A stretch of DNA of 64,000 nucleotides, taken from contig NZ_CP023688.1 of the NCBI RefSeq assembly GCF_008704655.1, positions 806,001 through 870,000 of the forward strand, given 5' to 3'. The notes beneath the pieces are model-generated. The model worked only from the letters and a program-made list of their open reading frames with translations, was not told the DNA's origin and did no database searches. The position numbers and the translations under genes are program-made. Shown here one piece after another: positions 12,439 through 36,841 of this stretch (position 1 is its first letter; each line of letters starts with the position of its first letter). Origin of the DNA: Streptomyces rimosus (lineage in GTDB: Bacteria > Actinomycetota > Actinomycetes > Streptomycetales > Streptomycetaceae).

Positions 12439-13227
12439 ATGACCTCCCCCCGCACCGACCTGGCTGCCTTCGCCGTCGAGCTTGCCGCACGCCTGCCCGG
12501 CCCCTGGACCAGTGAGTACCAGCGCCACGCGCGGTACGCGGACCAGTTCCCCCTCGCAGAGCAGCTCTGGGACCTCGGTCACGTCGATCACATCGTCAGC
12601 CAGTACGTCCTCAACCACGACGCCGTCCTCCACGGCCCCGACAGCCAGCGGCTCTACGTCACTGACCGCCCCCTGTATCCCCGCCAGTTCGTCGTCGCCC
12701 CGCTCGAACCCGACGGCGACGGCATTTGTCCCCACCACTTCGCCGGCGTCCAGGAACCGAACGGCATCGCCGTCTCCAACGCCCCGGCCCGGGCGGCCTT
12801 CCAGGTCACCCGTCGGCTGCTGCCCCGCTACGAGCAGGCCCTGCACCGGGTGCTCCGCAACGCGGCGACCGAGCCCGAGCTCCCGCACCGGCCCGCCCCG
12901 CCCCAGGTCGCCCAGACCCTCACCTTGACCTACTACAGCGACGGAGCCCTGGGCGTGCCGTACGAGAGCGTGCCCGCGGAGGCCCGGCTGGCGCTGTACG
13001 CCCACGGCTTCCAGTACCACCCGCACCAGGCCGCCTTCCTGCTGCCCGCCGCGTACGGCGAAGACGGCCGCGCGCTGCGCGTCCAAGCCGTGGCACAGCA
13101 GCTCGCCGCCCAAGGCATCGGCGTGAACCTCCGCGCCGCACCACAGGGGGCGGCACCCCCCGCCACATCCGCGCGGCCTGCCGCCCCTGCACCGGCCGGC
13201 GTTTCCGTGGCGGCCCGCCACCGGTAG
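12439..13227 (+). CDS. Module protein: LPGPW domain plus GF module
   Basis: 262 residues, AGGAG and ATG. Residues about 8-145 form a domain starting AVELAARLPGPWTSEY and containing EPNGIAVSNAPARAAF. The same domain recurs in the genes at 14629 and 24076 (EPNGIALTDDPFLSAEQV in the latter). Residues about 155-230 are a GF module: strands TLTLTYYSDGALGVPY, then ARLALYAHGF, AAFLLPAAYG and a last helix-strand QQLAAQGIGVNL. The Pro/Ala tail ends in AARHR. No known family recognised; no signal peptide or membrane helix. Confidence 0.7.
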   Translation: MTSPRTDLAAFAVELAARLPGPWTSEYQRHARYADQFPLAEQLWDLGHVDHIVSQYVLNHDAVLHGPDSQRLYVTDRPLYPRQFVVAPLEPDGDGICPHHFAGVQEPNGIAVSNAPARAAFQVTRRLLPRYEQALHRVLRNAATEPELPHRPAPPQVAQTLTLTYYSDGALGVPYESVPAEARLALYAHGFQYHPHQAAFLLPAAYGEDGRALRVQAVAQQLAAQGIGVNLRAAPQGAAPPATSARPAAPAPAGVSVAARHR

Positions 13228-13273
13228 CCCGACCGCGTTGCGCGAACCGGCACCCCGTATCTCTGGAGAGCCC

Positions 13274-13852
13274 CTGTCAACCCGTTCCTTCATCGCCCGG
13301 CCCACCCAGACCGGCTACGACGGCATCTACGTCCACCTCGACGGCACACCGAGCGAGAAGCTGCCCATGCTCCTCGCCGCCTTCCAGCACAAGTTCGGGC
13401 GGGACGTCGAGGCCATGGCCCAGCATCTCGTGGACGGCGTCACCGTCGGCTGGGACGAGCTGGGCACCGACCTCTTCTACGGAGCCCCGCACGAGATCGT
13501 CTCGGCTCTGACCGGCGGGCAGCAGTGGGCCAGCAGAACCCTGGACCACCTGATCACCCCTGACGGCTCGCCCCCGGTCCGCATGACGGTCACCGAAGAG
13601 ACCGCCGCCGACCAGGACGTGCAGTGGGGTTACATCCTTCGCCCGCACGGCATCGAAGTAATCCCCGTGCCCCACGCCGAAGCCGGTCCCGTCATCGGCT
13701 GGGACACCGATCCGCGCACGGCATTCAGCAATCACCCGGGCCACTGGTCCTACCCCGTCCTCACACCGGGACCGTCCGCCCGCGCCGTACGGCCACCCCG
13801 GTCCGCTCCCGCAGCAGCGCTCGCAGAGTCCCGCCCGGCCGTCCGCCGCTGA
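13274..13852 (+). CDS. Hypothetical plasmid protein, CTG start
   Basis: 192 residues. GGAG is followed after five bases by CTG at 13274; an upstream TTG at 13238 has no ribosome binding site. The sequence SFIARPTQTGYDGIYVHLDG, LAAFQHKFGRDVEAMAQHLV and GWDTDPRTAFSNHPGHWSYP looks like a compact alpha/beta protein. The short motif TGYDGIYVHLDG resembles a fold seen in several Streptomyces plasmid proteins, but no named domain is recognised. The tail is Pro/Ala-rich, ending AVRR. Confidence 0.6.
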   Translation: MSTRSFIARPTQTGYDGIYVHLDGTPSEKLPMLLAAFQHKFGRDVEAMAQHLVDGVTVGWDELGTDLFYGAPHEIVSALTGGQQWASRTLDHLITPDGSPPVRMTVTEETAADQDVQWGYILRPHGIEVIPVPHAEAGPVIGWDTDPRTAFSNHPGHWSYPVLTPGPSARAVRPPRSAPAAALAESRPAVRR

Positions 13853-13883
13853 CCCCGTCTGTCCCCGCTTTCCGGAGATCGCC

Positions 13884-14636
13884 CTGCCCACGCCTCTGAT
13901 CACGGTCGTCATCGCCACCCGCCTGCTCGAGGACCGCCTCGGCTACCTGACCGCCATGCACGCCAGCCTGACCCGGCAGTCCGTTCCCTGGGAGGCAGTG
14001 ATTGCAGTTGACGGTGCCGACCCTGCCCGCCTGCCGGCGCCACTCGCAGCGGACCCTCGGGTCCGCACGGTCGCCGTACCCCGGTCCGTGGGCGCTGCCT
14101 GTGCCCGCAACCTGGCGCTCAACGATGTCCGCACCCCGTACGTGAACTGGGCCGACGATGACGATCTGTTCACCGATGACGCCATGTCCGCGCGGCTTGG
14201 CACGCTGGAGGCGACCGGTGTGGGCTGGTGCGCCGGATGGAGCGAAGACCTTCACCGCGACGGCTCGACCACCCTGTGGCGCTGCCCGGCGCCGCCCGGA
14301 CGGCATGAGGCCGGTGACGTGTGGACGTACTGGAAGTCGCCGGCCGACACCATCCCGATCGGGCCGACCACCCTCCTCGCCCGCACCGACCTCGTCCGCG
14401 CAGCCCCGATGGGCGGTCTCGTTCAAGGGGAGGACTATTGCGCGGCCGTAGGCGTCACCTGCCTGGCCCCCGGAATTCTGCTGCCCCTGACGGTCTATCG
14501 CTACCGCAAACACGCAGGTCAGATGACCCAGGCACCGGCGTACGACCAATTGGAGGCGGCAGCCAGAGAGCACGCCTGGCACTACGGGCGCAGCCTGCGC
14601 GCCGCCGTCCGCCATGGGGAGCACCGCCGTGGCTGA
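13884..14636 (+). CDS. Family 2 glycosyltransferase, CTG start
   Basis: 250 residues. CGGAG is six bases before CTG at 13884; the first ATG (13956) would delete the N-terminal strand PLITVVIAT that defines the GT-A fold, so the CTG start is well supported. EAVIAVDGADP and the acidic WADDDDLF (DXD motif, sugar-nucleotide and metal binding) follow, then GLVQGEDYCAAV near the catalytic base region. The acceptor is unknown. Placed inside a conjugation block between plasmid module genes, it might modify a transferred or surface protein or the wall. Its end overlaps the next gene. Confidence 0.75.
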   Translation: MPTPLITVVIATRLLEDRLGYLTAMHASLTRQSVPWEAVIAVDGADPARLPAPLAADPRVRTVAVPRSVGAACARNLALNDVRTPYVNWADDDDLFTDDAMSARLGTLEATGVGWCAGWSEDLHRDGSTTLWRCPAPPGRHEAGDVWTYWKSPADTIPIGPTTLLARTDLVRAAPMGGLVQGEDYCAAVGVTCLAPGILLPLTVYRYRKHAGQMTQAPAYDQLEAAAREHAWHYGRSLRAAVRHGEHRRG

Positions 14637-15747
14637 CGCGCAGATCATCCTCTCCTACAGCCGGAACCAGGGCATCATCGCCATCGCGTCCGGCGAAAAG
14701 TACGCCTCCGCCGGCAAGGCGCTGGTCGAATCCGGCTTCCAGCGAGGTGAGGCCGGGGTGTACCGCCTGCCGACCGAGGACCCGGACGTCTCCCGCACCA
14801 CCGTGGCCGACCTGGTCCGCCGCGCCGAGGCACACGGCGCCACGGTGACGACCAGCAGCCAGCGCTTCATCGGCGACGTTGCCAACGACATCGCCCGCCT
14901 GCTGCCCGGGCCGTGGGAGGCGCAGGTGGAGCTCTACTCCCATCCTGTCTGGCAGGGGGACCTCGTGCCCTGGCTGTGGGACAGCGGGGAACTCGCCCGC
15001 GCGGTCCAAAGCGAGCGCATCCCGTACGCCGCCACCCTCACCCTCACCGAGGGGACTTCCGAGACCACGTTGCTGTTGGCGGAGCGCCCCGGCCACCGAC
15101 TCAACTACCTGGTAGGCGCGTTCTCCCCGAGCCCGTTCGAGGAGGGTTACGGCGATCCGCACGCCCCGGCCAGCATCGTCTTGCCTCCCTTTCCCGGACG
15201 GGCGGCCCAGGCCATCACCGAGCGCTACCTGCCCGCCTTCGACCGGGCCCTCCACGCCCGCCGGACCACGGCCGTCGCCGACGCTCTCGATCGCATTCGC
15301 ACCGAGCACCGCACCTGGACCGCGATGGTCGCCTCCGGCCGCGACAGCGACGCCACCCCGCTCAGCTTCGACGCGCTCGGCACCGCCACCGCACAGTTCC
15401 TGGACACCACCTGGCATGAGTTCCTCACCGTTACGGACCACGCCCCCGCCCTGCTCGACCGGTGTCGCCCCGCCGCCACCCCGTGGCCCGAGGACGCTGA
15501 GGCTCTCGCGCAGCTCGCCGACACCCTCAGCAATGCCGAAACGGTTCGCGAGGACCTCGCCTTGGGTACCCCGCTCACCCCCACGGAGCGCAACGCCCGC
15601 ACATGGCCGGCCATCGAAACCTGGCTCACCTGCGGCGAAGCGTTCCTCCGGCAGGCACGAGCCGCCAGCCCACGCCCGCGGCCCGTCCTCACGGCCTCGG
15701 CGCCGCCCCTCGCCCTCCCGCCGGCCCGGCCCGCACCCCGCCGCTGA
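14629..15747 (+). CDS. Three-part module protein (GF module, LPGPW domain, helical domain)
   Basis: 372 residues from GTG at 14629, with GGGGAG seven bases upstream; an ATG at 14614 is possible but poorly placed. Residues 1-75 form a GF module (QIILSYSRNQGIIAIAS, ALVESGFQRGEAGVYRLP, RRAEAHGATVTT). Residues about 85-215 form the LPGPW domain (ANDIARLLPGPWEAQVELY). The last part is helical, with ERNARTWPAIETWLTCGE, related to EREQHTLVWPHLAAWADYGT in the 16601 gene. The tail ends PAPRR. This protein links the recurring modules in one chain, which supports their being true domains. Confidence 0.7.
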   Translation: MADAQIILSYSRNQGIIAIASGEKYASAGKALVESGFQRGEAGVYRLPTEDPDVSRTTVADLVRRAEAHGATVTTSSQRFIGDVANDIARLLPGPWEAQVELYSHPVWQGDLVPWLWDSGELARAVQSERIPYAATLTLTEGTSETTLLLAERPGHRLNYLVGAFSPSPFEEGYGDPHAPASIVLPPFPGRAAQAITERYLPAFDRALHARRTTAVADALDRIRTEHRTWTAMVASGRDSDATPLSFDALGTATAQFLDTTWHEFLTVTDHAPALLDRCRPAATPWPEDAEALAQLADTLSNAETVREDLALGTPLTPTERNARTWPAIETWLTCGEAFLRQARAASPRPRPVLTASAPPLALPPARPAPRR

Positions 15748-15779
15748 CTGCGGCCACCCACGCTAGGAGCACCCTCTCT

Positions 15780-16235
15780 TTGGACCCCGGCACCCACTTC
15801 GCCTTCGGCACCCACCCACACCACGGCTTCGTCGCCTCCGCCACCTCCAACATGCCCGCGCACCTGGCTCACTGGTACCTCGTGCGGGAGCAGTTCGAGC
15901 CCGTAGATGGCCAGCCGGGCCTGTTCCGGCTGACCGAGCCCGAACGCGACGGCCCGCGCCGCACCCGGCAGGCCGTCCACGACCTGCGCCGCAGCGGGTA
16001 CGCCGTGCACGCCGATGTCGCCCTCGATCCTGCCGCATCGGCCAACCCGCCACGCCCGATCAAGCCCCACGGACTCTCGGAGCAGCGCAGCCGGATCGCG
16101 CAGGCCGCCGGCCGCGTGTCACAGCGCCGTTCGGCGCCCACCACGTCGGCGCCCACCACGCGGCCAATCCCGCCGAAGCCCAGCTACGCGCCCACCGTCC
16201 ACCTGCCTGCCTCTCCCGCCGGGCGGTCGCGATGA
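15780..16235 (+). CDS. GF-module protein
   Basis: 151 residues from TTG at 15780, ten bases after AGGAG. One GF module fills residues 5-90 (THFAFGTHPHHGFVASATSN, REQFEPVDGQPGLFRLTEPE, DLRRSGYAVHADVAL). A basic, Pro/Ala-rich tail ends in AGRSR. It overlaps the next gene by four bases. Confidence 0.6.
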   Translation: MDPGTHFAFGTHPHHGFVASATSNMPAHLAHWYLVREQFEPVDGQPGLFRLTEPERDGPRRTRQAVHDLRRSGYAVHADVALDPAASANPPRPIKPHGLSEQRSRIAQAAGRVSQRRSAPTTSAPTTRPIPPKPSYAPTVHLPASPAGRSR

Positions 16236-16576
16236 CGCCCGACGCCGAGCCGATCAGCATCACCCGCGGGCAGGGCGACCAAGTCGAAGTCGAAGGCGCC
16301 ATCGATCCCCTGGCCCAAAACGCCCTGAGCCGAGCGGGCTTCCTCTTCGAGCCGTCCCTGCATGGCCAGTGGGTCCGCCTCCCATTCGACATGGGGCGCA
16401 ACTGGGAGAACGCACACGCCACCTGGGCGGCAGAGATGCTCAGCGCCGCCCGTTATCCCGTACGCCTCGACCCAACCCTGCACCACGAGGCCCCCGCGGC
16501 GGTTGTCGCCTCCGGGCCGAGGCGTCCGGCGGCCACGACCGCGCAGGCCCCGCCCGGCCGCGCGCCGCACCGCTGA
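16232..16576 (+). CDS. GF-module protein
   Basis: 114 residues, ATG overlapping the preceding TGA (ATGA). Almost the whole protein is one GF module: EPISITRGQGDQVEVEGA, then NALSRAGFLFEP, GQWVRLPFD and a closing helix-strand AEMLSAARYPVRLD. The tail ends GRAPHR. It is the shortest clear example of the module and shows that it can stand alone. Confidence 0.6.
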   Translation: MTPDAEPISITRGQGDQVEVEGAIDPLAQNALSRAGFLFEPSLHGQWVRLPFDMGRNWENAHATWAAEMLSAARYPVRLDPTLHHEAPAAVVASGPRRPAATTAQAPPGRAPHR

Positions 16577-16600
16577 TGTCGACACCACCAGGAGGAACAG

Positions 16601-17773
16601 ATCCCCGACCCTCACGCGACCGACATCGTCACCCTCTCCTCCCGGGTACGCGACTTCCATCTGCGCATGGCTGCCATCGACCGCGAGGCCGAGGCCGCTC
16701 TCGACACCGCTCGTGACCGCTACGGGCGCACGGTCCACCACCAGGTGGCCGCGGCAGCCCGCGCCCGCCGCAACCACGCGGCCGTCGACACGTACGCGAC
16801 GTACCTGGCTGCGCACGCCGGCCCCCTGCTGGACGCTGCCCGCAGCGCCGTCGACGGGCTGCCGCCCGCCCGGCACACCCGCGCGTGGCGGGACCTGCTC
16901 GACGCGCTCGTCACCTCCCACACGGAGATCGTCCGCATCCTCGACCGTCCCGCCCCTCCCGGCTCGGCCGCCGAGCGCGAGCAGCACACCTTGGTGTGGC
17001 CCCATCTCGCCGCCTGGGCCGATTACGGCACCATCGCCGCCGACCTCGCCGAACAGACCCACCAGCCCGAGCCCGGGCTGACCGACGAGGAACGGCAGAT
17101 GTGGACCGAAATGGCCCAGGCCGCGCGACGGCGAGGTGAACTGGACCTGTTCGAGTCGTGGTATGTGGCCGATGGCCGTCGCATCACGCTCGCCTACCTC
17201 GTCGAGGACGAGGACTCCACGGTGGTCGCGCTCGCCGGAGACCCGGGTGCGCCGGGCTGGGAGGTCATCGGGCACTACGCCCACGAGTGGACAGCCGGAC
17301 AGGCGCTGCCGCGCCCGGTGCCGCCCGGAGTCCTGCGCCCCGACGCCGCGTCCCGGTTCAACCGTCCGGAGCCCGCCCCCGAGCGGCCCCTGCAGGAACT
17401 GGTCCAGGAGGTGGTCGAGGCTCGCGCCGCCGGTGATGTCGCCGATGCCCTGCTCAGCGCCACGCAAACGGGCTACGACGCCGGCCCGATGGTCCGCCTG
17501 CAGCACCTCCTGTCCACCGCCGCAGAGTTCTCGTACGCTCTCGAGACCGCCCAGGGCCGACAGATCGGTGCCCGGCTCGACGCCCTCGGACGGCAACTCG
17601 ACTTCCTCGTGCAGGAAGTCCACGACGCGGCAGAGGATCTCGTCGCCACCGTCGCCGTCCTGCCACCGCACCGCACTCCGAAGCCCCCGCGGATCCGCCC
17701 GCGCCCTGCCCTGGAGACGACGCCTCCGCCCGCGCCGCCACAGCGCACCACGACGACCGCACGTCACCCATAG
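16601..17773 (+). CDS. Large helical plasmid protein, probable ATC start
   Basis: About 390 residues. GGAGG at 16591-16595 lies five bases before an in-frame ATC at 16601. The first usable ATG (16667) has no binding site and would drop 22 residues that read as protein (DIVTLSSRVRDFHLRM). The N-terminal half is helical (REAEAALDTARDRYGRTVHH, REQHTLVWPHLAAWADYG). A beta-rich centre (LFESWYVADGRRITLAYLVE) resembles the small-molecule or nucleic-acid binding core of DUF317-type proteins only loosely. The C-terminal helical domain (LQELVQEVVEARAAGDVADA, LLSTAAEFSYALETA) resembles those of the 23357 and 32558 products. Confidence 0.6.
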   Translation: MPDPHATDIVTLSSRVRDFHLRMAAIDREAEAALDTARDRYGRTVHHQVAAAARARRNHAAVDTYATYLAAHAGPLLDAARSAVDGLPPARHTRAWRDLLDALVTSHTEIVRILDRPAPPGSAAEREQHTLVWPHLAAWADYGTIAADLAEQTHQPEPGLTDEERQMWTEMAQAARRRGELDLFESWYVADGRRITLAYLVEDEDSTVVALAGDPGAPGWEVIGHYAHEWTAGQALPRPVPPGVLRPDAASRFNRPEPAPERPLQELVQEVVEARAAGDVADALLSATQTGYDAGPMVRLQHLLSTAAEFSYALETAQGRQIGARLDALGRQLDFLVQEVHDAAEDLVATVAVLPPHRTPKPPRIRPRPALETTPPPAPPQRTTTTARHP

Positions 17774-17813
17774 CCGATTCTGCTATCAGGGAGCTGCTTG
17801 TCTCTGGCTCTGG

Positions 17814-18659
17814 CTAAAGGCTGTCCCGTATGGGGTGGGGATTATCCGGTGAGGGCTGTGTTGTGGAGGCGGGCGATGCCCAGGATGGCCTGGTGAACGC
17901 CGCTGCCCTTGAGGCGGCAGTCCCGCAGGATCTTCCAGTTCTTCAGGCGGGACAGGGCGTGCTCGACGCGTGCGCGGGCCTTGCGGTGGACCTTGTTCTC
18001 GGCTTCCTGCTGCGGGCTCAGGGTTTCCTGCCCGCGTCGACGGCGGTGAGGAATGAGCAGGCCGGTGCCCTGATATCCGCCATCGGCGAGCACCGGAACG
18101 CCTCGACAGGCGATGTCGACACCCGACTCGGTGAAGGCCCGGCAGTCGTTACGGCTGCCGGGCAGGGGAGCGCCGACGGCCACGACCAGGCGGCTGTTGG
18201 CGTCGATGACGACCTGCAGGTTCGTCGAGTACCGGTAGTTCTTGCTGGAAGCGGCGACGCTGCGGTCCCGGGTGGGAATCAGGGTGCCGTCGACGATGTA
18301 GACGGTGTCCTCGCGCTTGCGGCGGGCCGGTGAGATCGCCAGCAGCGGCGCGAGGTGGTCCAGGATCCGGTCCGCGGCCGACTTGGAGATCCCGAACAGC
18401 GGCGCGACCTGCCGCAACGTGAGGTTCGTGCGCCAGTACGTGGCAACCAGTAACACCCGGTCCTCCAGCGGCAACCGCCACGGCCGGCCTCGCTGGACGT
18501 CACCGCCACGACGACGCACCAGCGCGACCAGGCGGTTGAACTGTGCCGGACTCAGCCCGGTGAACGGCTCGATCCACTTCGGATCGTCTGCTGACATCAC
18601 CCCACCCATGCCCCGATCAACGTCCCAGCGGCCCCATCAGTTACGGGACAACTTTTAGG
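17814..18659. mobile_element. IS5-family insertion sequence
   Basis: An 846-base element bounded by imperfect inverted repeats of about 17 bases: CTAAAGGCTGTCCCGTA at 17814-17830, and its counterpart at 18643-18659, which on the minus strand reads CTAAAAGTTGTCCCGTA. It holds one intact transposase gene on the minus strand. The outer CTA/TAG may be target sequence rather than element. No clear target duplication was seen. It sits exactly at the edge of the roughly 100-base inverted repeat that begins at 18661. Confidence 0.8.
17842..18609 (-). CDS. IS5-family DDE transposase
   Basis: 255 residues, apparently intact. N-terminal helix-turn-helix region (LSPAQFNRLVALVRRRGGD, LTLRQVAPLFGISKSAADR) and a DDE catalytic core: first Asp in YIVDGTLIP, second in PVLADGGYQG, and Glu in ARVEHALSRLKNWKILRD. 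The length is normal for the DDE_Tnp_4 type common in Streptomyces. It inserts between the first and second runs of accessory genes. Confidence 0.85.
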   Translation of the reverse strand: MGGVMSADDPKWIEPFTGLSPAQFNRLVALVRRRGGDVQRGRPWRLPLEDRVLLVATYWRTNLTLRQVAPLFGISKSAADRILDHLAPLLAISPARRKREDTVYIVDGTLIPTRDRSVAASSKNYRYSTNLQVVIDANSRLVVAVGAPLPGSRNDCRAFTESGVDIACRGVPVLADGGYQGTGLLIPHRRRRGQETLSPQQEAENKVHRKARARVEHALSRLKNWKILRDCRLKGSGVHQAILGIARLHNTALTG

Positions 18660-18660
18660 G

Positions 18661-18764
18661 TGACGTTGACCGGCCCCAGCGTGACGGCCCGAAATGGCCC
18701 CATTTTGCGAAGACCGGCAACAGTACGGAGCAGTCCACGGCGAGGGCATGCCCGAGTACAGTGA
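18661..18764 (+). repeat. Left arm of a ~100-bp inverted repeat
   Basis: Matches the reverse complement of 19495-19597 with roughly 85-90% identity by eye. Shared blocks include ACCGGCCCCAGCG, AACAGTACGGAGCAGT and CGAGGGCATGCCCGAGT. Together the arms enclose the GIY-YIG gene. Confidence 0.75.
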
Positions 18765-18766
18765 GC

Positions 18767-19384
18767 TTAGGAATTTGCGAGACTTTCCTCGGCGTACTGC
18801 CGAAGGAAGGCATGAGCGGCATTGTCGATCTCTGCGACGGGGTCTGGGCAGCTTTCGAAGTCGAACCACTCCCCGTGGGTGCGCCTGACGTTGAATTGCT
18901 CATGCAGGTAGCGTTCAAGAGGGTACCCACCGCGAGCGCTCCAGCGAAGTTCCAGTGTGGTCGCAGAGCCTGACTGCAACGACTTGATCCGCTGGGCTAT
19001 GTCCTTCGCAACACCGATCTTGATCGAGTCAGGGGCGCCGTCGGGCGATACGGCGTACACCCAGCGGTCATCGAAGCAACTCTCTTCGCGCACTGCACGA
19101 GGCGTGGGCTGCTCCATCAGTTCGATCATCTCCTCATACTCACGATTCTTCCGCTCGTTGATTGCAACTGCCAGGCGGACCAGCTTGTCTCGGGCCTGCT
19201 CGGCAGTGACCGATCCAGCTGTAATCAGATCGAGGAGCTCAATCACAGCCGGGACTTCGATGTCAGTGCCCCAGCTGGGAGCGTCTCTGCGCGTATCACC
19301 GTCCATCCCAACCCCCCATTGCAAGGTGACGTTCTCGATGCGGTGACTACCGAAGGCCAGGTGCACGGTGAAGGATTGGGCCAC
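18767..19384 (-). CDS. GIY-YIG (T5orf172/MUG113-like) nuclease-family protein
   Basis: 205 residues from GTG at 19384, with AGAGGA six bases upstream. Residues about 110-190 carry the T5orf172-type GIY-YIG pattern: WVYAVSPDG, DSIKIGVAKDIAQRIKSLQS, then YPLERYLHEQFNVRRTHGEW and FDF. The N-terminal half is helical and acidic (EQARDKLVRLAVAINERKNR). Members are found in phages and plasmids. Base composition is lower in GC than the neighbours, and the gene is framed by long inverted repeats, both signs of separate acquisition. Confidence 0.7.
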   Translation of the reverse strand: MAQSFTVHLAFGSHRIENVTLQWGVGMDGDTRRDAPSWGTDIEVPAVIELLDLITAGSVTAEQARDKLVRLAVAINERKNREYEEMIELMEQPTPRAVREESCFDDRWVYAVSPDGAPDSIKIGVAKDIAQRIKSLQSGSATTLELRWSARGGYPLERYLHEQFNVRRTHGEWFDFESCPDPVAEIDNAAHAFLRQYAEESLANS

Positions 19385-19494
19385 GAGGCGTCCTCTCAGG
19401 GGTGGTGGGGTGGTGCAGGGCAGGGCCATGGTCGCCGATGCCACTGACATTGGTGGTCGTGACGCTTGAAGGAGCGACTTCGGCTGGCCCCACT

Positions 19495-19597: not shown

Positions 19598-19635
19598 ACC
19601 ACTGGATCCCATGGACAGGGCCGAATCCGCTCCCG

Positions 19636-21707: not shown

Positions 21708-22489
21708 CCCTCCCCGTCCGCCGCCCCGGCCGCGCCCTGGCCCTGCTCACGGCGAAAGCCCGGGCCACCGCTGATTTGGGCGCCGCCTCCTGGCCGGACC
21801 GCCTGGCCCAGGACCTGCACGACCTCGATGCCGACTGGCGAGAGTCGGCGGAGGTGTGCGCGGATGTCGCCTGGACGGCACGCGCCGCGGGGCACAGCGT
21901 CCTCGACCTGCTGCCCCCGGCCCAGGTCACCGCCGCCGGCCCCGATCCGGTCACCACCCGCACCTTCCGGCATCTGTACCTGAGCGCCCTGCGGTTCGAT
22001 TTCCGCTGCCCCACCCTCCAGGCCCTGGTCGAACAGCTGCCGGACACCGCGCTGCGGTCGCTGGACTGCTACAGCCGCGCTCTGTACGCCTTCGCGCTGC
22101 TGGGCCAGTCCCGCCCCGCGGGCCTGACCGTCATGGACGAGGTCCTCGCGGAGGCCGGGGAGCACGACAAAACGCTGCACGTACTGCTGCACGGGCTGTG
22201 GCTCGGCCAGGACCTGGACCAGGGCACGCAGCGGCTCCTGGCCCTCAGCGCCCGGCCGGCCTTCGCCCCCGGCACCGATCCGATCGTGCTCTTCCGCAGG
22301 GCCGGCGCGCTGCGCCGGCTCGGCCGCTACGACGATGGGCTCGCCGCCCTCGACCGGGCCCTGGATCTTCTGCCGCCCGGTGACATTGCGGTGCACGCCG
22401 ACCTGGTGCGTGAGCGCTCCTTGATCTGCGCCGCCCGTGACCTCCACCAGCGCCTGCCCGCCCGCGCTTTCGGAGGCACGCCGACGTGA
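21704..22489 (+). CDS. TPR-like helical-repeat protein
   Basis: 261 residues from GTG at 21704 (GTGA overlap). Repeated helical pairs, including SLDCYSRALYAFALLGQS and LFRRAGALRRLGRYDDGLAA followed by LDRALDLLPPG, have the spacing and small-residue pattern of tetratricopeptide repeats, a protein-binding scaffold. It lies between the barrel-like gene and the relaxase-like gene and overlaps both, so the three are translated together. Confidence 0.6.
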   Translation: MTLPVRRPGRALALLTAKARATADLGAASWPDRLAQDLHDLDADWRESAEVCADVAWTARAAGHSVLDLLPPAQVTAAGPDPVTTRTFRHLYLSALRFDFRCPTLQALVEQLPDTALRSLDCYSRALYAFALLGQSRPAGLTVMDEVLAEAGEHDKTLHVLLHGLWLGQDLDQGTQRLLALSARPAFAPGTDPIVLFRRAGALRRLGRYDDGLAALDRALDLLPPGDIAVHADLVRERSLICAARDLHQRLPARAFGGTPT

Positions 22490-25602: not shown

Positions 25603-25983
25603 ATGTCCCACCCCACCCCGTACACGGTGCGGCTGGCCGACGAGATCACCCGCCAGCTCGGCCAGCTCGCCGACCACCTCGCTCAACTGCCCCCGCAGGA
25701 AGCCCCGCAGGCCCTCGCCCGCATCCTTGATCCCGACAACGGCGTCTTCGGCGGCGTCACCCACCTCGTGATCACAGGCAGCGTGTTCGCCAAGGCCGAG
25801 GCCGAACGGGGAGCGCTGCCAGCGGAGGTGTGGCTCGCCCTCGGCCGGGCCTCGAACGAACTCAACGACATCGCGCTGGGCCTGGACGAGCACCGCGAGA
25901 CCCTCCAGCACGCCAGCGCCCACCCCGCCACCAGGGCGGCGCCGCCGGTGCCCGCTCCGCTCGTCGTCCGGCGGCGCCGGTGA
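25603..25983 (+). CDS. Hypothetical helical protein
   Basis: 126 residues, CGGAGGAGC directly before the ATG. Helical (RLADEITRQLGQLADHLAQL, LPAEVWLALGRASNELNDIA), ending in a Pro/Ala tail closed by VVRRRR. It resembles the helical C-terminal domains of the 23357 and 32558 products. The stop overlaps the start of the DUF317 gene. Confidence 0.6.
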   Translation: MSHPTPYTVRLADEITRQLGQLADHLAQLPPQEAPQALARILDPDNGVFGGVTHLVITGSVFAKAEAERGALPAEVWLALGRASNELNDIALGLDEHRETLQHASAHPATRAAPPVPAPLVVRRRR

Positions 25984-26811: not shown

Positions 26812-27168
26812 GTGCCCGCACTCACCCCGGATGCCATCCGCACCGCGACCGAGACCCTGTCCCGCCTGACCGACTACCTGCGTGACAGCCCCGATCCCCA
26901 GCAGGCGCTCGACCTGGTCGAGCCGCTGCTGGACGAATACACCGGTCTTCCCGTCCAGCTCGCCGACGCCCTGCGCGCCCTGGCCCGCGCCGTACAGGAA
27001 CACCCGGACACCCCGCGCAGCCTCGAAGCCGACCTGCTGGTCATGGAGTTGCGCACCGCCGCATGGGAACAGGCCGACCAGCACACCCTCCACTACGTCC
27101 TCGACGACCTGCGCGCGCTGCACGCCAGCGCCTGCGGCACCGAAGCGGAGTGTGGCCCGTGCCGGTGA
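26812..27168 (+). CDS. Hypothetical helical protein
   Basis: 118 residues from GTG at 26812, with GAGGAG four bases upstream. All-helical (DAIRTATETLSRLTDYLRDS, QQALDLVEPLLDEYTGLPVQ, LADALRALARAVQEHPDTPR). It ends in CGTEAECGPCR, a possible Cys-rich tip. It is sandwiched between two DUF317 genes with a GTGA overlap to the second. Confidence 0.55.
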   Translation: MPALTPDAIRTATETLSRLTDYLRDSPDPQQALDLVEPLLDEYTGLPVQLADALRALARAVQEHPDTPRSLEADLLVMELRTAAWEQADQHTLHYVLDDLRALHASACGTEAECGPCR

Positions 27169-27998
27169 GCGAACGGCAGCTCGCCGCCTTCGCCGACCAG
27201 CTCCCCCGGCGCATCCCCCTCGACACCAGCCCCCGTCACCTCGCCGGCGCCGGCGATGCCCGGCACGTCACCCACGCACTCGCCGCGGCCGGATGGGCCC
27301 GCACCTCCGACCCGTTCAGCCCCGAGGTCATCCTGCGCAGCCCGCAGGGCCGGTGCACCCTGCACTTCGACCCGCAGTCCGTCACCTCCGCATGGTGGCG
27401 GCTGCGGGGGCCGAGCCCACCGACACCGAGCCGGGCTGGTACGCCGAGTTCGGTGACCTCGTGCCCGCCGAGATCCTCGGCCGCCTCACCGACGCTCTCA
27501 CCGGCCCGCCGCCGCCCCGGCCGCCGGGCCCGTTCCAGGCCCTCAAGTCGGCGGGATGGCTGTTGAGCGACGCGGGCACGGCCCACTCCCCTGACCGCAT
27601 GTGCCATGTAGAACGCTGTCCTGATCAGGAGAGCCTCCGGGGCTTCTGGCACGTCGAGACCTGCGAGCCAGGGCACGGCACGCTGCTGGGCCCTCGCATC
27701 TGGCACGCCCGGTTCGACGGCCAGGTCCCCGACCATCTCGTTGGGCGCCTTCATCACCGGGCTCGCCGATCCCGCCCCGCTCCAGCGCGGCATGTTCGAC
27801 CGCACCGCCCACCACAGCGTCGTGCAGGAACCCAGCTCGCGCACTCCCGAACAGGTCGTCGCCGCGCATGCCAACCGGCTCGATGCCATCCGCGCACAGG
27901 TACGCGCCGCCCGTCGCCAGCAACCGCCCCGCCCCGCCGCAGCCCCGCCCAGGGCCGGCGTACCCCGCTCGTCCGGCCGCCCACCGCTGACCCGTTAG
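27165..27998 (+). pseudogene. DUF317 gene with two compensating frameshifts
   Basis: DUF317-type reading starts at GTG 27165 (LAGAGDARHVTHALAAAGW, CTLHFDPQSVTSAWWRLRG). It shifts frame in a run of five G near 27405 and continues as EPTDTEPGWYAEFGDLVPAE and RIWHARFDGQVPDHLVG. It shifts back at GTTGGG near 27745 to end with AFITGLADPAPLQRG and a tail closing PPLTR at 27998. One missing and one extra base restore the original frame. As written, translation would stop at 27566. Both sites are homopolymer-like, so sequencing error is a real alternative to decay. Confidence 0.7.
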
Positions 27999-28008
27999 GA
28001 CCCCCGCC

Positions 28009-28926: not shown

Positions 28927-30714
28927 TTGCCCCCCTCGTCCAACAGCTCCGACGGGTACGACATCGCCTTCCGGCTCCTCCTCGGAGTCCTCGCCATCGT
29001 CGTCCCCTTCTCGAACCTCGCCTGGCTGTCCGGCAACATCACCGCCTGCCTCACCGGCCTTCCGTGGGCGCCGTACCAGCCGACCGCAGCCCTGCTCCAT
29101 CCCGACCAGCTCTGGCCTCAGGCCACAGAAACGTCCCTGCTTGTCGGCGCCCGCATCGTTCCCGGCGCCGTCCTCCTCGCCCTCGGCGCCGCAGCCGGTG
29201 TCCTGTGGGCCCGCCACAAGAACCGCAGCGGCAGTCGGAAGAAAAAGATCACCGGCATGGCCAAGGCGCGGGACATCGAGCCGCTGATGGCCAAGGCGAT
29301 CGAGGCCAAGGCCCGGTCCCTGCGCCCGAGCCTGAAGGACACCAAGCACATCGAGGCCAAGGACACCGGCATTCTCCTCGGTAACCTCCAAGGCACCCCG
29401 CACGAGGTGCGGATGGGCTACGAGGATGTCGCCGTCGCGATCATGGCTCCGCGATCGGGGAAGACCACCTCGCTGGCGATCCCCTCCATCCTGTCCGCCC
29501 CCGGCCCTGTCCTGCTGACCTCGAACAAGGCGGCGGGCGACGCCTACACCACGACGCTCGACGCCCGAGCGGAAGTGGGACGGGTGTGGTCAATGGACCC
29601 GCAGCAGATCGCCCACGCCACTCGCGAGATGTGGTGGAACCCCCTCGCCACCGCGAAGACCCTGGACGGCGCCAACCGGCTGGCCGGCCACTTCGTCTCC
29701 GCCTCCGTGGACGCCTCGCAGCAGGGGGACTTCTGGTCGAAGGCCGGTTCCAACATCCTGAGCCAGTTGCTGCTGGCCGCTGCCCTCGACGAGCGTCCGA
29801 TCACCGACATCATGGCCTGGCTGGCCTTCCCCGCCGACCGCACCCCGCTCGATATCCTGCGCGACCACGGCTTCGCCGCCGTCGCCGCCCAGCTCAAGGG
29901 CACCGTCGAGGGCCCGCCCGAGACCCGTGACGGCATCTACGAGACGGCCCGCCAGTACGCCGCGGCCCTCCTCAACGCCGAGATCGCGGCGTGGGTGACA
30001 CCGCAGAAGGACGTCGCAGAGTTCCGGCCGTCGCAGTTCGTCACCTCCACCGACACGCTCTACCTGCTCAGCAAGGACGGCGGAGGCGGCGCTTCGGCAC
30101 TGATCGCGGCGTGCGCGGACGCGGTGATGCGGGCGGCAACCGCCGAAGCTGAACGCGCCGGCGGACGTCTTGACCCGCCGGCTCTGGCGATCCTCGACGA
30201 GGCGGCCAACGTGTGCAAGATCAGCGACTTGCCGGACCTGTACTCCCACCTCGGCAGCCGCGGAATCATCCCCATCACCATCCTCCAGTCCTACCGGCAG
30301 GGCCAGAAAGTCTGGGGGGACGCGGGCATGGACGCCATGTGGTCCGCCTCGACCGTGAAGGTCATCGGCAGCGGAATCGACGATCCGGATTTCGCGGACA
30401 AGCTGAGCCGCATGATCGGCGACCACGACGTGGAAACCACCTCCATCTCGCACTCCGAGTCCGGGAAGTCGACCTCCGTGTCGATGCGCCAGGAGCGGAT
30501 CCTGCCCGCCGACGCGATCCGCGCCCTGGCCAAGGGCACCGCCCTGTGCTTCGCCACCGGCATGCGCGCCGCCATGCTCGACCTGCGCCCCTGGTACGCC
30601 GAGCCCGGCGCCAAGGAGTTGTCCGCCGCCTCCGCCCGCGCCTCGAAGGCCATCACTGAGCGCGCCGTCGCCAAGGCAGCCCCCGCGCAGACCGACTTCA
30701 CCACCGCCACCTGA
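28927..30714 (+). CDS. VirD4/TraG-like type IV coupling protein ATPase
   Basis: 595 residues. Two N-terminal membrane helices (LLLGVLAIVVPFSNLAWL and GAVLLALGAAAGVLWA) anchor a hexameric ATPase that recruits DNA or protein substrates to the channel. Walker A is IMAPRSGKTTSLAIP near residue 173. Walker B is LAILDEAANV near residue 419. TILQSYRQGQKVWG and the C-terminal QERILPADAIRALAKGTAL fit the TraG/TraD family. The TTG at 28927 lies 12 bases after CGGAGG; a GTA at 28918 is nearer. It is separated from virB4 by 17 kb of accessory genes. Confidence 0.85.
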   Translation: MPPSSNSSDGYDIAFRLLLGVLAIVVPFSNLAWLSGNITACLTGLPWAPYQPTAALLHPDQLWPQATETSLLVGARIVPGAVLLALGAAAGVLWARHKNRSGSRKKKITGMAKARDIEPLMAKAIEAKARSLRPSLKDTKHIEAKDTGILLGNLQGTPHEVRMGYEDVAVAIMAPRSGKTTSLAIPSILSAPGPVLLTSNKAAGDAYTTTLDARAEVGRVWSMDPQQIAHATREMWWNPLATAKTLDGANRLAGHFVSASVDASQQGDFWSKAGSNILSQLLLAAALDERPITDIMAWLAFPADRTPLDILRDHGFAAVAAQLKGTVEGPPETRDGIYETARQYAAALLNAEIAAWVTPQKDVAEFRPSQFVTSTDTLYLLSKDGGGGASALIAACADAVMRAATAEAERAGGRLDPPALAILDEAANVCKISDLPDLYSHLGSRGIIPITILQSYRQGQKVWGDAGMDAMWSASTVKVIGSGIDDPDFADKLSRMIGDHDVETTSISHSESGKSTSVSMRQERILPADAIRALAKGTALCFATGMRAAMLDLRPWYAEPGAKELSAASARASKAITERAVAKAAPAQTDFTTAT

Positions 30715-30798
30715 CCCCCGGCGCCCATGCCCCGGCCCTGACGCCGCCACCGAGCGGCAACTCTCCCACCCGACCACTGCTTTGCCCCTTCGGAGACC

Positions 30799-31410
30799 AT
30801 GGCCTTCCTCGACCACAACGACGTCGTCATCGGATCCACTGACGACGGCCACACCTTCGTCCTGCTCAACCGGGCCCTCCCCGCAGCCCAGCGCATCCTG
30901 ACCGACCACGGCTTCACCGCCCACCAGCCCAGCGGCCCGGGCCGCCCGCTGTACCTGCTACCGCCCGCCTACGCCGGGGAGCAGGCCAACACCCGCACCG
31001 GCGAAGCCATGCATTTCCTCTTCCAGCACACCTGGGACGTGACCGACCTCAGCTGGACCACCCGCTGGAACCCGGACGAGCCGCTGCCCGAACCGGACGT
31101 CCACTTCCATGTCTCCGGCGAGCGCGTCACCGCCACCGCCCGCACCGACGCCGCCCGCCGCATCCTGGCCAACCACGGCTTCACCCCCACCCGGGAGGGC
31201 TACGCCCTGCCCGTCGGCACAGATGAAACGCGACAGCTCGGTGCGGTCGTCCAGGCGGAGACCGCCCTGTCCATGGAGAACCTGGGCACCCGTATCCGGC
31301 TCGGCTTCCGCACGCCCGAGGACATCCCCGCAGCTCCCGCCCGTACGAGCAGCCACACCGCCACACCGCCCGCAGCCCCGGTTCCTGACCGGCCGCGCCG
31401 TACCCGCTGA
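30799..31410 (+). CDS. Protein with two GF modules
   Basis: 203 residues, CGGAG and ATG. Two copies of the module in tandem. The first has DVVIGSTDDGHTFVLLNR, AAQRILTDHGFTAHQ and PLYLLPPAY. The second has DVHFHVSGERVTATART, AARRILANHGFTPTREGYAL and SMENLGTRIRL. The internal repeat within one chain is the cleanest evidence for the module boundary. The tail ends RPRRTR. Confidence 0.65.
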   Translation: MAFLDHNDVVIGSTDDGHTFVLLNRALPAAQRILTDHGFTAHQPSGPGRPLYLLPPAYAGEQANTRTGEAMHFLFQHTWDVTDLSWTTRWNPDEPLPEPDVHFHVSGERVTATARTDAARRILANHGFTPTREGYALPVGTDETRQLGAVVQAETALSMENLGTRIRLGFRTPEDIPAAPARTSSHTATPPAAPVPDRPRRTR

Positions 31411-31476
31411 CCGCCCAGGCGAAGTGCCGAACTGGCCTCCAGGCCCGTCCCGTCCCGTCGCGGCGGGAGGACCACG

Positions 31477-31658: not shown

Positions 31659-31734
31659 ACGCCTCCGCCGCCACGCGAACGCGGCGGCCCGGTACACCGC
31701 CGCAGGCCCCTCACCGAACGGAACCGTCCCGCCG

Positions 31735-32538: not shown

Positions 32539-32557
32539 CTCGTCCCCGGGAGATCTC

Positions 32558-33085: not shown

Positions 33086-33130
33086 CCGCACGCCCGCGGG
33101 CGCCGCCCCCGTACACCGCAAGGACGCCCC

Positions 33131-34069
33131 ATTCCCGCAACCCCCGCCTTCCGATCCCTCTCCCTCGGCGCCGGAGTCCAGTCCAGTGCCCTGCTCGCCC
33201 TGTCCGCCGAGGGAATCCTCCCGCGCGTCGACTGCGCGATCTTCGCCGACACCGGCTGGGAGCCGGCAGCCGTCTACGCCCATCTCGACCGCCTGGAGAA
33301 GGAGGTAGCCGAACCAGCCGGGATACCCGTGCTGCGCGTCTCGGCCGGGAACATCCGCGAGGACGCGCTCAACCCCGGCCACCGGTTCGCGTCCATGCCG
33401 CTGCACGTCCTCAACCAGGACGGCAAGGCCGGGATGACCCGTCGGCAGTGCACCGGCGAATACAAGATCAAACCGATAAAGAAGCAGGTACGCGCCCTCC
33501 TGGGCTACCCGTATCCCCGGCGCATCCCCAAGGGCGTGTTCGTCGAGCAGTGGGTCGGGATCTCCACCGATGAGTTCCACCGGGCCAAGGACGCCGACGT
33601 CGCCTACATGCGCAACCGGCACCCCCTGATCGAGCTGGACTGGTCGCGCGCCGACTGTCTGCGCTACCTGAAGCAGCGCGGTCTGGCCGACACCCCGAAG
33701 TCGAGCTGCCTGGGCTGCCCTTTCCACGGCAACGCCCAGTGGCGGCACATCCGGGACCACAGCCCGGCCGAGTGGGCCGACGTCGTCGCCTTCGACGCGG
33801 CTATCCGCAGCGGCAACGCCCGCGCCAATGCTTCCGGCAACCGGCTGCTCGGCCAGGCGTTCTTGCACCGCTCCCGCGTCCCGCTCGACCAGGCACCCAT
33901 CGACCACGTCACCGCCGCCGAATGGGCCGCTCGCCAAGCTGAATTGGGCGACCAGGCCCCGGATGGTGACGCCCGCGTCGTGCTGGAGGAGGGCGTGGCC
34001 GACGGCTGCTCGCCCTGGGCCTGCCGCGGCGAGCAGCCGACACAGGACGACTTCGGGCTGGCCGCATGA
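33131..34069 (+). CDS. PAPS-reductase-like PP-loop protein, ATT start
   Basis: 312 residues. AAGGA, six bases, then ATT at 33131. The adenylate-binding PP-loop (LSLGAGVQSSALL) begins nine residues in, and no ATG, GTG or TTG lies between it and the in-frame stop at 33083, so ATT is the only sensible start. Downstream come IFADTGWEP, CTGEYKIKPIKKQ, WVGISTDEFHR and SSCLGCPFHG, the marks of the phage/plasmid branch of phosphoadenosine phosphosulfate reductase-like proteins. The CTGEYK and CLGC cysteines could hold sulfur or an iron-sulfur centre. It overlaps the C5 methyltransferase by four bases, so a nucleic-acid modification role is a fair guess. Confidence 0.75.
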   Translation: MPATPAFRSLSLGAGVQSSALLALSAEGILPRVDCAIFADTGWEPAAVYAHLDRLEKEVAEPAGIPVLRVSAGNIREDALNPGHRFASMPLHVLNQDGKAGMTRRQCTGEYKIKPIKKQVRALLGYPYPRRIPKGVFVEQWVGISTDEFHRAKDADVAYMRNRHPLIELDWSRADCLRYLKQRGLADTPKSSCLGCPFHGNAQWRHIRDHSPAEWADVVAFDAAIRSGNARANASGNRLLGQAFLHRSRVPLDQAPIDHVTAAEWAARQAELGDQAPDGDARVVLEEGVADGCSPWACRGEQPTQDDFGLAA

Positions 34070-35310
34070 TCGTGGACCTGTTCGCCGGACCCGGCGGCTG
34101 GTCCTACGCCCTGTCGCTGCTCGGCGTCCGGGACATCGGGCTGGAGCGGGACGCGTGGGCCTGCCGCACCCGCGCCGCAGCCGGGCAGCTGACACTGCGC
34201 ACCGACGTCGCCCGCTATCCGGTGGGGCCGTTCGTCGGCCGCACCACCGGTGTGATCGCCTCGCCGCCGTGTCAGGCGTGGTCGATGGCCGGCAAGCGGC
34301 TCGGCCTGCTCGACCAGCCGCTGGTCCACCAGGCCGTCGCCGACCTGGCCGCCGGTCGCGACACCCGCGACAAGCTGCTCGGTGCCTGCCGGGATGAGCG
34401 GTCGCTGCTGGCCGCCGAGCCCATGCGCTACCTCCATGCGCTGAACACGGTGGGCGAGCCGGAATGGGTGGCCATGGAGGAGGTCCCCGACGTCGCACCG
34501 CTGTGGAAGCAGTACGCGGCGATCTTGCGGTCGTGGGGTTTCTCCGTGTGGTGCGGGATTCTCAACGCGGCCGACTTCGGGGTGCCCCAGACGCGGCGGC
34601 GGGCGATCCTGCTCGCCTCCCGTTCCCGCCCCGCCGAGCCCCCGCCGCCGACCCACGCACAACACGGCGAGCCGGAGACCCTGTTCGGGCCCGGCCGTGC
34701 GCCGTGGGTGTCCATGGCCGCAGCCCTCGGCTGGGGTGCCACCGACCGCCCGGTACCGACCGTGTGCGCCGGGGGCGGACCCGGCGGGGGCCCTGAGCCG
34801 TTTCCCTCCGGCTCGCGCAAAGCCCTGGCCGACGCCCGGGACCGCGGCACCTGGCAGCACCCACCGCGCCCCGCAGGCACCGAACGGCGCCTGCGGCGCC
34901 GCAGCCAGCCCGCCGTCGCGGCCCACGAGAGCCCACCGCCGTCCGCGCGCCCGGCACCGGAGTGGGCGTGGTCGCTGCGCACCAACAGCCAGACGAACGC
35001 CACCGTGCGCCGCGCCGACGAGCCCGCCGGCACCCTGTTCTTCGGACACCGCGCCAACGAATGCCTCTGGATCGCCGAACCCGCCACCACCACAGCGGGC
35101 GAGGACGCCCCCGTGCCGGAGGCAATCCGCATCACCGCCGCCGAGGCGGGCGTGCTGCAGACCTTCCCCGCCGACTACCCGTGGGCCGGCAACAAGGGCC
35201 AGCAGTTCTCCCAGATCGGCAACGCCGTCCCGCCCAGGCTCGCCGCCCACCTGCTGGCCCCGCACCTCGGCCGCCCCCTCGGCCCCGACGACTTCACCCT
35301 CGCCGCCTGA
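34066..35310 (+). CDS. C5 cytosine DNA methyltransferase
   Basis: 414 residues. Conserved motifs in order: I DLFAGPGGWSYAL; IV SPPCQAWS with the catalytic Cys; VI MEEVPDV (ENV in most members, so one conservative change); VIII PQTRRRAILLASR; X QIGNAVPPRLAAHL. The variable region between VIII and X should set the target. ATGA overlap with the PP-loop gene. No restriction endonuclease was recognised nearby. Likely self-protection of the element against host restriction, or part of a modification pair with its neighbour. Confidence 0.85.
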   Translation: MIVDLFAGPGGWSYALSLLGVRDIGLERDAWACRTRAAAGQLTLRTDVARYPVGPFVGRTTGVIASPPCQAWSMAGKRLGLLDQPLVHQAVADLAAGRDTRDKLLGACRDERSLLAAEPMRYLHALNTVGEPEWVAMEEVPDVAPLWKQYAAILRSWGFSVWCGILNAADFGVPQTRRRAILLASRSRPAEPPPPTHAQHGEPETLFGPGRAPWVSMAAALGWGATDRPVPTVCAGGGPGGGPEPFPSGSRKALADARDRGTWQHPPRPAGTERRLRRRSQPAVAAHESPPPSARPAPEWAWSLRTNSQTNATVRRADEPAGTLFFGHRANECLWIAEPATTTAGEDAPVPEAIRITAAEAGVLQTFPADYPWAGNKGQQFSQIGNAVPPRLAAHLLAPHLGRPLGPDDFTLAA

Positions 35311-36431
35311 TGCACCCCCGTCCCTCTGCACCCCGCCCTGACGAAGACGCCGAGCTGGCGGACGCGCATCCTCCGGCCCCGGTGCACTACGCCGAGCAGG
35401 CCCTGCTCGGCGCCCTCCTCCTCGAACCCGCACGCCTAGACGGACTCGGCCCGCTGGCCCCCGAGCACTTCGACGCCCCTGCCCACAGCGCCCTGTATAC
35501 GGCCATGCACACCGCCCCTGTTCCCGACGCCGAACAGCACCGCCGCGCCCCGGTCTGGCTGGACCGCGTCCTGCAAGCCGCCCGGCCCCAGGCCCCCGGC
35601 CTGACCGCCTCCTACCTGCACACCCTCGTCCACCGCTGCCCCTGGCCCGGGCACGCAGCGGCCTACGCCCACATGATCCAGGCCGACCACACTCGCCGTA
35701 CCGTGCGGGAGCACGCCGACCGCCTCGCCCAGGCCGCCACCGAGGCGTCGCTGCCCGACCCCACCGCCACCGTCCTGGCCCAGTGCGACACCCTCTCCAG
35801 CTTCCTGAACACGCTGTCGAGCCGGTTCGCCCCGCACCCGGGCTCCCTGCCCCGCACTCCCCACCCGGCCCCCGCCCGACGCACCGCCGGCGAGGAGGCG
35901 CTGGAGGAAGAACGGGCGCTGCTCGCGTGTGCGACCGCCCAGCCCTCCAGGCTGCGGGAGATGCGCTGGCTGCAACCCGACGACTTCGTTCTGCCGCTGC
36001 ACGGGCAGCTCTTCACATGCCTGACCGCGCTGGTACACCGCCGCGAGCCCATCGATCCGGTCACCGTGCTGTGGGAAGCCCAGCACCAGCATCTGCTGCA
36101 CGCCAACTTCACCCCCGCCGACCTGATCGGCCTGCTTGCCACCCCGGTCGGCACGCCCGAGCACTGGGGGGAGAAGATCCTGCGGCGCGCCCTGCTCGCC
36201 CAGGCTCACACCACCGCCGTGCAGATCCGGGCGTTCACCGACGATGCGGCCAACACCCCGCACCAGCTCGCCACCGGCAGCCGCCGCGCCCTGGCCAACC
36301 TGACCGCCCTGGGCACCCGCTGGCAGCGCGCCAGCCACGCTCCCGCCACACCGCGCTCCCCGGCCGTACCCCGCGCCGGGCCCCGCCTGCGGGCCGCCCC
36401 TGCCCCACCGACCACCCGCGTCTCCCGATAG
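35310..36431 (+). CDS. Protein with two DnaB N-terminal-like domains, no helicase core
   Basis: 373 residues, ATG sharing a base with the preceding TGA. Residues about 25-130 (YAEQALLGALLLEPARLDGL, PEHFDAPAHSALYTAM) and about 205-310 (EEERALLACATAQPSRLREM, PDDFVLPLHGQLFTCLTALV) both match the DnaB N-terminal helical domain. That domain normally makes DnaB hexamer contacts and binds primase. There is no RecA-like ATPase domain. It might bind host DnaB or DnaG. The tail ends TTRVSR. Confidence 0.7.
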   Translation: MHPRPSAPRPDEDAELADAHPPAPVHYAEQALLGALLLEPARLDGLGPLAPEHFDAPAHSALYTAMHTAPVPDAEQHRRAPVWLDRVLQAARPQAPGLTASYLHTLVHRCPWPGHAAAYAHMIQADHTRRTVREHADRLAQAATEASLPDPTATVLAQCDTLSSFLNTLSSRFAPHPGSLPRTPHPAPARRTAGEEALEEERALLACATAQPSRLREMRWLQPDDFVLPLHGQLFTCLTALVHRREPIDPVTVLWEAQHQHLLHANFTPADLIGLLATPVGTPEHWGEKILRRALLAQAHTTAVQIRAFTDDAANTPHQLATGSRRALANLTALGTRWQRASHAPATPRSPAVPRAGPRLRAAPAPPTTRVSR

Positions 36432-36466
36432 CCCACCTGCCCGGCCGGGGCCCGGAAGCGAGCGCC

Positions 36467-36841
36467 ATGCCCCACCCCGACACCGCCGCCCACGTCCGCC
36501 TCGACCGCCACCCCCACCACACCTCCGCCGTCACCGCCACCCTCACCGACTCCTCCCCCACCACCGCCCGGGCCCTGCTGAGCGTCCACGGCTTCCGTCC
36601 CACCGGCGAACACGCCCTCGTTCTGGCCCGCATCGACCACGAAGAGCCCCACTATGCCGAGCACGCCGCCCAGGCCCTGCGCGCGGCGGGCCTTACCGTC
36701 GAGATCACCCCCGTGCTCCAAGAAGACATCGACACCGAGTGGGACTGGGCAGGCCACCCCCTGCACTAGCTGGACCGCGACGAGATCCGGGACGTCTCCC
36801 ACCAGGCCCAGCAGATCCACGACGACATCGCCCAGGGATGA
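36467..36841 (+). pseudogene. GF-module protein interrupted by an in-frame TAG
   Basis: ATG at 36467 (GGAAG upstream) opens 100 codons forming a GF module (ARALLSVHGFRPTGEHALVL, QALRAAGLTVEITPVLQ) and stops at TAG 36767-36769. The same frame continues for 23 protein-like codons (LDRDEIRDVSHQAQQIHDDI) to a TGA that overlaps the ATG of the TetR gene as ATGA, the usual coupling in this block. The TAG therefore looks like a recent nonsense change or a readthrough site. Confidence 0.6.

Follow-up and report, generated by a model that had tools for sequence, protein, structure and literature searches.

A recurrent small domain and basic C-terminal tails among the proteins of a Streptomyces rimosus conjugation block

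Introduction

Conjugation through type IV secretion systems (T4SS) has been little studied in Streptomyces compared with TraB-dependent transfer, and the gaps between the recognisable ATPases of such blocks are filled by hypothetical proteins. What do these proteins have in common, and what might they do for the transfer machine? We address this question in a stretch of 64,000 nucleotides from Streptomyces rimosus (contig NZ_CP023688.1, positions 806,001-870,000, of a single-contig genome of 9.36 Mb), referred to here as the window, whose proteins have their closest relatives in Streptomyces, S. rimosus among them. At 9-37 kb the window carries a conjugation block encoding a VirB4-like ATPase, a TraG/VirD4 coupling protein, two DUF317 reading frames, a glycosyltransferase-like and a cytosine methyltransferase-like protein, and numerous small hypothetical proteins. 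An initial annotation of this block had described a recurring module, here called the GF module, in nine of its proteins. The nine are here placed in one domain family, whose types and locus are fixed.

One domain family in nine proteins

All ten segments proposed as GF modules (S1 to S10) are present on the forward strand of the nine named genes, and they are one domain family. In a leave-one-out comparison, in which a profile hidden Markov model (HMM) built from nine segments was scored against the tenth and against 1000 shuffles of it, the held-out segment stood above all 1000 shuffles in ten of ten cases (14.6-37.4 bits, versus 11.8 for the best shuffle). When the window was searched in six frames (796 open frames), all ten held-out segments were recovered, with independent E-values (i-Evalues) of 2e-9 to 0.049, S2 (0.049) and S4 (0.027) being weak when taken alone. 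The model made from all ten returned each segment at an i-Evalue of at most 1.5e-18, though these same segments had built it; the next frame stood at 0.041, and the reversed window gave 0.012 at best. Across the whole genome the ten segments were the sole matches at E <= 0.001, followed by a stop-containing frame at E 0.0101.

Comparison of the ten orthologous types, HMM against HMM, joined all of them in a single connected group at a probability of at least 70. A probability of at least 50 was reached by 20 of the 45 type pairs and of at least 90 by ten, versus 0/45 at 50 in a reversed-sequence control (maximum 3.6). S8 is the loosest type (79.5 to S6) and drops out of the group at 80, while low-scoring direct pairs such as S1-S7 are linked solely via other types. 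The sequences have diverged far: two Leu columns, and no other, are invariant in the alignment (A1), and the other segments are 14-25% identical to the first. The motif first given for the module, with an internal GF and a closing GY.V, is an average; the closing GY.V is missing from some copies.

AlphaFold2 models were made for g30799 (predicted local distance difference test score, pLDDT, 83.6) and g12439 (pLDDT 87.4), covering three copies in two proteins. In these S1, S8 and S9 have their strands and helices in the same order, and the GF module is predicted to be a domain of about 75 residues with the order beta-beta-alpha-beta-beta-alpha-beta, on which nine small, cytosolic block proteins are built. 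By fold, the XPB N-terminal domain, the DNA-binding T4 MotA C-terminal domain, PduU and Prp are candidate counterparts.

That the module is not a named family was borne out, since no Pfam or NCBIfam family scored above its cut-off. NCBIfam gave two hints, both under threshold; SBP_bac_5 (PF00496) reached 16.6 and 13.7 bits, versus a Pfam cut-off of 32.4, and PASTA, Acyl-CoA dehydrogenase, S8 pro-domain, TMP_2 and similar Pfam hints were every one under cut-off. PADLOC gave no match at 0.01, the best PHROGs match (E 0.022) was located on the helical part of g23357, and a PDB sequence search with the family profiles A2 and A4 gave none at E 10. DUF317/SPDY (PF03771), which like the GF module recurs in this block and also carries basic tails, was rejected as a relative (hhalign probability 0-2 against each of the ten types), and a DNA-binding role of the module judged by charge was unsupported. 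A literature search, with most subscription journals outside its reach, returned nothing on the GF module, nor on DUF317 with Streptomyces.

The module was also rightly called a true module, for it is found singly, in tandem and fused with other domains. In g12439 (12439-13227) S1 (12910-13143) follows a domain named here LPGPW (residues 1-145, 12439-12873) and precedes a tail ending AARHR. S2 (14635-14862) comes first in g14614 (14614-15747; an alternative GTG start is possible at 14629), ahead of an LPGPW domain (~14851-15282), a helical part and a tail ending PAPRR. Three proteins consist of one module and a tail: g15780 (TTG start, 15780-16235; S3, 15789-16028; ending AGRSR), g16232 (16232-16576; S4, 16247-16480; ending RAPHR) and g24921 (24921-25328; S7, 24954-25202; ending PRRTP). 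The TTG-started g23357 (23357-24052) joins S5 (23372-23605) to a recurring helical domain (~23639-23938) and ends AGPRR, whereas g24076 (24076-24834) has its LPGPW domain (~24088-24510) before S6 (24529-24747) and ends ANRAR. Immediately 3' of TraG, g30799 (30799-31410) carries S8 (30817-31059) and S9 (31096-31311) in tandem and ends RPRRTR; g36467 (36467-36769; S10, 36488-36718) is the sole module protein without a basic tail. All nine lie on the forward strand.

Two of the partner domains recur as well. A whole-gene HMM comparison, run without a reversed control and with two frames containing internal stops left out, assigned the LPGPW domain in common to g12439, g24076 and g14614 (98.9-100), which differ in its order relative to the module. 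The same comparison found the helical domain common to g23357, g16667, g22486 and g25603 (81-94); its copies (~17378-17683, 23056-23286, 23639-23938 and 25645-25908) make it the third recurrent domain of the block. In the structural model of g12439 the LPGPW domain looks chaperone-like and is a candidate for the type III secretion chaperone fold. Homology of the helical domain to the C-terminal part of the relaxase was considered and rejected (probability <= 1).

Old types in a syntenic block

Searches at E <= 1e-3 gave 111 relatives of g30799, 311 homologues of g12439 (best 120 of 311 listed) and 454 relatives for a short-protein profile (best 120 of 454 listed); among the matches listed, they are hypothetical proteins, mainly from Streptomyces. 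With one genome per species (84,980 genomes), the g12439 family marked 44 loci, all labelled Streptomyces, and among 101 Streptomyces genomes it occurred in 23 and the g30799 family in five. An iterated model collected 234 modules across the window and 56 loci. Matches beyond Streptomyces were seen in G025, G029, G034 and G036 (E 4.6e-5 to 7.7e-4). On re-scoring with the enlarged model, nothing was returned at 0.1 for G025, G029, G034 and G013:8052374; the G036 match, at 0.0035, lay in a solute-binding-protein-like stretch and was judged a chance match, and the match in G020 stood at 3e-5. In viral contigs three stretches matched a pattern, and none of these encoded a g12439 relative.

Gene order recurs across many loci, with gaps: first EccE-like, VirB4, S1, g13238, the glycosyltransferase-like gene, S2, S3, S4 and g16667, and then g20389, g21231, g22486, S5, S6, S7, g25603, DUF317, TraG and S8S9. 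Module hits do lie beside VirB4, which was found within the stretch in 39 of the 44 loci fetched via the g12439 family; of the five loci with no VirB4 match, L048 and L084 have less than 4 kb upstream and L063, L082 and L087 have 10 kb. Of the ten window copies, eight fall in clades of their own (support 0.75-0.997), mostly with one tip per locus, in a tree built from 222 modules; S2 (support 0.0) and S4 (0.47) are not placed in a supported clade. The copies thus represent orthologous types of old origin, and an element usually has a single copy of each, within a VirB4-to-TraG block that is syntenic in Streptomyces. The initial annotation had seen in them an amplification within one element; since they cluster by type across elements (eight of ten types), the duplications are older than the dispersal of this family of elements.

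Basic C-terminal tails

The part that module proteins have in common with module-free proteins of the block is a C-terminal tail, not the module. We scored a tail where the last 25 residues contained at least 35% Pro plus Ala and at most two Asp or Glu, and the last five at least two Arg, Lys or His. This rule is satisfied by 17 of 27 block proteins, among them eight of the nine module proteins, versus two of 208 chromosomal genes chosen for their GC content at third codon positions (Fisher test, 4e-17). With four omitted block frames added, none of which has a tail, the count becomes 17/31 (9e-16), and the contrast holds at other thresholds. No tail was found among 126 annotated plasmid coding sequences; from this control four coding sequences cut by stretch ends, the cut first coding sequence of L002 and one of uneven length (25223-26442 of L129) were left out, a stop-containing one of L131 was dropped and a 171-base one (249-419 of L003) was not counted.

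The module-free carriers, all on the forward strand between 9177 and 36431, are g9177, g13238, g16667, g22486, g25603, g25968 (DUF317), g28042, g32660 and g35310 (with a DnaB-like N domain). At 53 relative loci the tail was present in 101 of 135 module genes, counting only modules that scored above 25 bits, versus one of 135 VirB4, TraG, EccE, Dcm and glycosyltransferase genes. At least two basic residues occupy the last five positions in 101/104 homologues of g30799, 67/72 of g24921, 41/43 of g15780 and 118/120 of g12439 (best 120 of 311). In one of two of these families position -1 is basic in 94% of members and position -3 in 82%, in the other in 92% and 96% respectively, and the linker varies; in both structural models pLDDT is low at the C-terminal end. 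In statistical terms, then, the tail is a disordered Pro/Ala-rich C-terminus closed by a basic cluster (Arg/His), carried by eight of nine module proteins and by module-free neighbours.

Just upstream of the window, a gene for 139 amino acids (L106:17807-18226, at about 803.8 kb of the contig, reverse strand) has a basic tail ending NAARSR; of 15 genes picked from the upstream 40 kb, it alone carries the tail.

Relaxases and SsrA-like endings

The relaxase of this genome is of the MobA/VirD2 type (MOB-P; PF03432, 29.3 bits versus a cut-off of 24.6) and is encoded at 776824-778542 of the contig, about 28 kb upstream of the window; a TrwC relaxase was found nowhere in the genome. Relaxases end in at least two basic residues among the last five in 11 of 12 cases. 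Within the block, g22486 (22486-23343, forward strand) is a relaxase-domain paralogue without the catalytic histidines, followed by a helical domain (~23056-23286) and a tail ending ATRHSP. Its first 170 residues align with residues 1-170 of the relaxase (hhalign 99.6%, 31% identity), so the MOB-P domain is present and the catalytic histidines are not: the His motif occurs in 0/22 rows of the g22486 family versus 12/12 relaxases, the stretch that replaces it being read in 11 of the 22. Hits lie at corresponding places in other clusters.

A different ending is carried by TraG and by two adjacent genes on the forward strand at 33329-35310, namely g33329 (33329-34069) and the Dcm-type methyltransferase (34066-35310), both of which end DDF[GT]LAA. 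These endings, summarised as DF..A[AT], come close to the end of the host transfer-messenger RNA (tmRNA) tag, ANTKRDSFALAA. The pattern, picked after sight, occurs at the end of three window frames and of 11 frames of related loci, versus 0/2296 chromosomal and 0/1234 plasmid open frames. DF[GT].A[AT] endings were seen also at L003, L038, L040, L043 and L111, and TraG does not have the ending in at least three of the eight sources with a TraG marker. Because the endings resemble the host tag, TraG, g33329 and the methyltransferase may carry built-in SsrA-like degrons; a literature search that most subscription journals lay outside of returned nothing on SsrA-type degrons of coupling proteins. 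At L070 and L072 a frame that by eye is similar to the methylase at 2560-3504 of the window ends DDFVLSA.

Interpretation of the module proteins and their tails

Together, locus and tails suggest that the module proteins are helpers or passengers of the transfer machine. The reading we favour, tentatively and by analogy, is that they would be clients of the type IV coupling protein that are marked by their tails and either dock onto it or are co-transferred; it is their translocation that we infer. The basic tail would then be a common docking or translocation signal recognised by TraG (VirD4 type), and the folded modules would be the variable working parts rather than the address. The modules may keep the relaxosome and its escorts assembled, or may be delivered with the DNA, and could act on either the recipient or the donor side of the gate.

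The tail is read as a coupling-protein recognition feature because basic C-termini act as transport signals in VirB/D4 systems. According to the accessible part of one account (PMC10025392), the positively charged C-termini of these systems are transport signals, and the last 48 residues of MobA serve as such a signal. Like the VirB/D4 substrates VirE2, VirF and MobA described there, the block proteins have an unstructured C-terminus with conserved Arg that is common to otherwise unrelated proteins and, as far as its basic end goes, to the relaxase. Unlike those substrates, they come from another phylum with another cell envelope and are candidate substrates; the placing of the basic residues at the very end (-1 and -3) and the linker of Pro and Ala distinguish this set. 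The setting resembles T4SS-based integrative and conjugative elements (ICEs) of Actinobacteria (Ghinet et al., PMC3218068) and of Streptomyces (PMC9513070) in its VirB4-like ATPase, TraG/VirD4, MOB-P relaxase, NlpC/P60 protein and chromosomal location. Recurrent module proteins, shared tails and a pseudo-relaxase are not described in the accessible parts of these ICE accounts.

Several observations weigh against the client reading. The tail rule was fixed after the tails had been seen, and 34 of the 135 module genes of relatives fail it, as do the g30799 homologue on plasmid L002 and g36467; only three of 12 relaxases satisfy it in full. The tail is also found in 130 of 463 other genes of the relative loci, so that it marks the region and not the module. 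Three stretches (L108, L109 and L111) contain S10-type modules but no VirB4 or TraG marker. We know of no Streptomyces protein substrate of a T4SS of this kind, and basic tails might equally bind DNA or membranes.

The chief alternative we consider less likely: the module proteins would remain in the donor as relaxosome or DNA-processing accessories, with tails that bind DNA or the coupling protein and without translocation. A wider proposal, somewhat more doubtful still, would take about 17 small block proteins (GF, LPGPW, helical, DUF317 and pseudo-relaxase) as a conjugal escort set, in which one Arg-ended signal would direct passage through the coupling protein into the recipient together with the DNA, GF would be the commonest fold, and TraG, the C5-methyltransferase and g33329 would be kept scarce by host ClpXP via their SsrA-tag-like ending.

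The initial annotation had read the module itself as the shared interface to one partner, for example the transfer channel, with the variable segments giving specificity. Its recurrence in nine proteins of one T4SS block, in varied domain contexts, speaks for this, and it is plausible that they have a partner in common; but almost no surface-type residue recurs across the ten types (their two invariant columns are Leu), and module-free proteins have the same tail and locus, so we regard the module as an improbable interface. Least probable is that the tails are low-complexity extensions that evolve neutrally in GC-rich mobile genes, on module paralogues of unrelated, element-specific use: a GC content of 70% makes Pro, Ala and Arg cheap, and many other genes of the loci carry tails (the 130 of 463 above), but plasmid coding sequences (0/126) and chromosomal genes of similar composition (2/208) hardly do, the linker drifts but the final three residues stay conserved, and the tail is all but absent from the block's ATPases and enzymes (1/135).

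The basic C-terminal tail offers a testable signal that would separate substrates among the block proteins from parts of the machine. Should the tails prove to be translocation signals, a Gram-positive conjugation system would possess a large set of protein substrates; if they are not, annotators of such elements still gain a defined accessory repertoire.

Other features of the window

The element has the VirD4/TraG and VirB4 proteins of a Gram-positive T4SS. The coupling protein (28927-30714, forward strand; TraG-D_C, E 3.4e-33; T4SS-DNA_transf, E 3.4e-22) ends QTDFTTAT, and the VirB4-like ATPase (9942-11507, forward strand), which has no basic tail, is identified from synteny and an AAA_10 match under the Pfam cut-off (E 0.0045). 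The nearest match to a tyrosine integrase (PF00589) lies 58 kb upstream of the window. A tRNA-Thr call at 15599-15693 on the reverse strand overlaps g14614 and was judged spurious, and no integration site was taken from it.

The block is interrupted at 17842-19450 by an IS5-like transposase, which is closely similar to plasmid-borne copies of the IS1373 type, and by a GIY-YIG-type gene on the reverse strand, where GC content falls to 0.64. The second DUF317 gene (~27100-28000) is readable in more than one frame and appears degenerate. Outside the element, the translations at 45025-51700 resemble, by eye, a respiratory nitrate-reductase-like operon.

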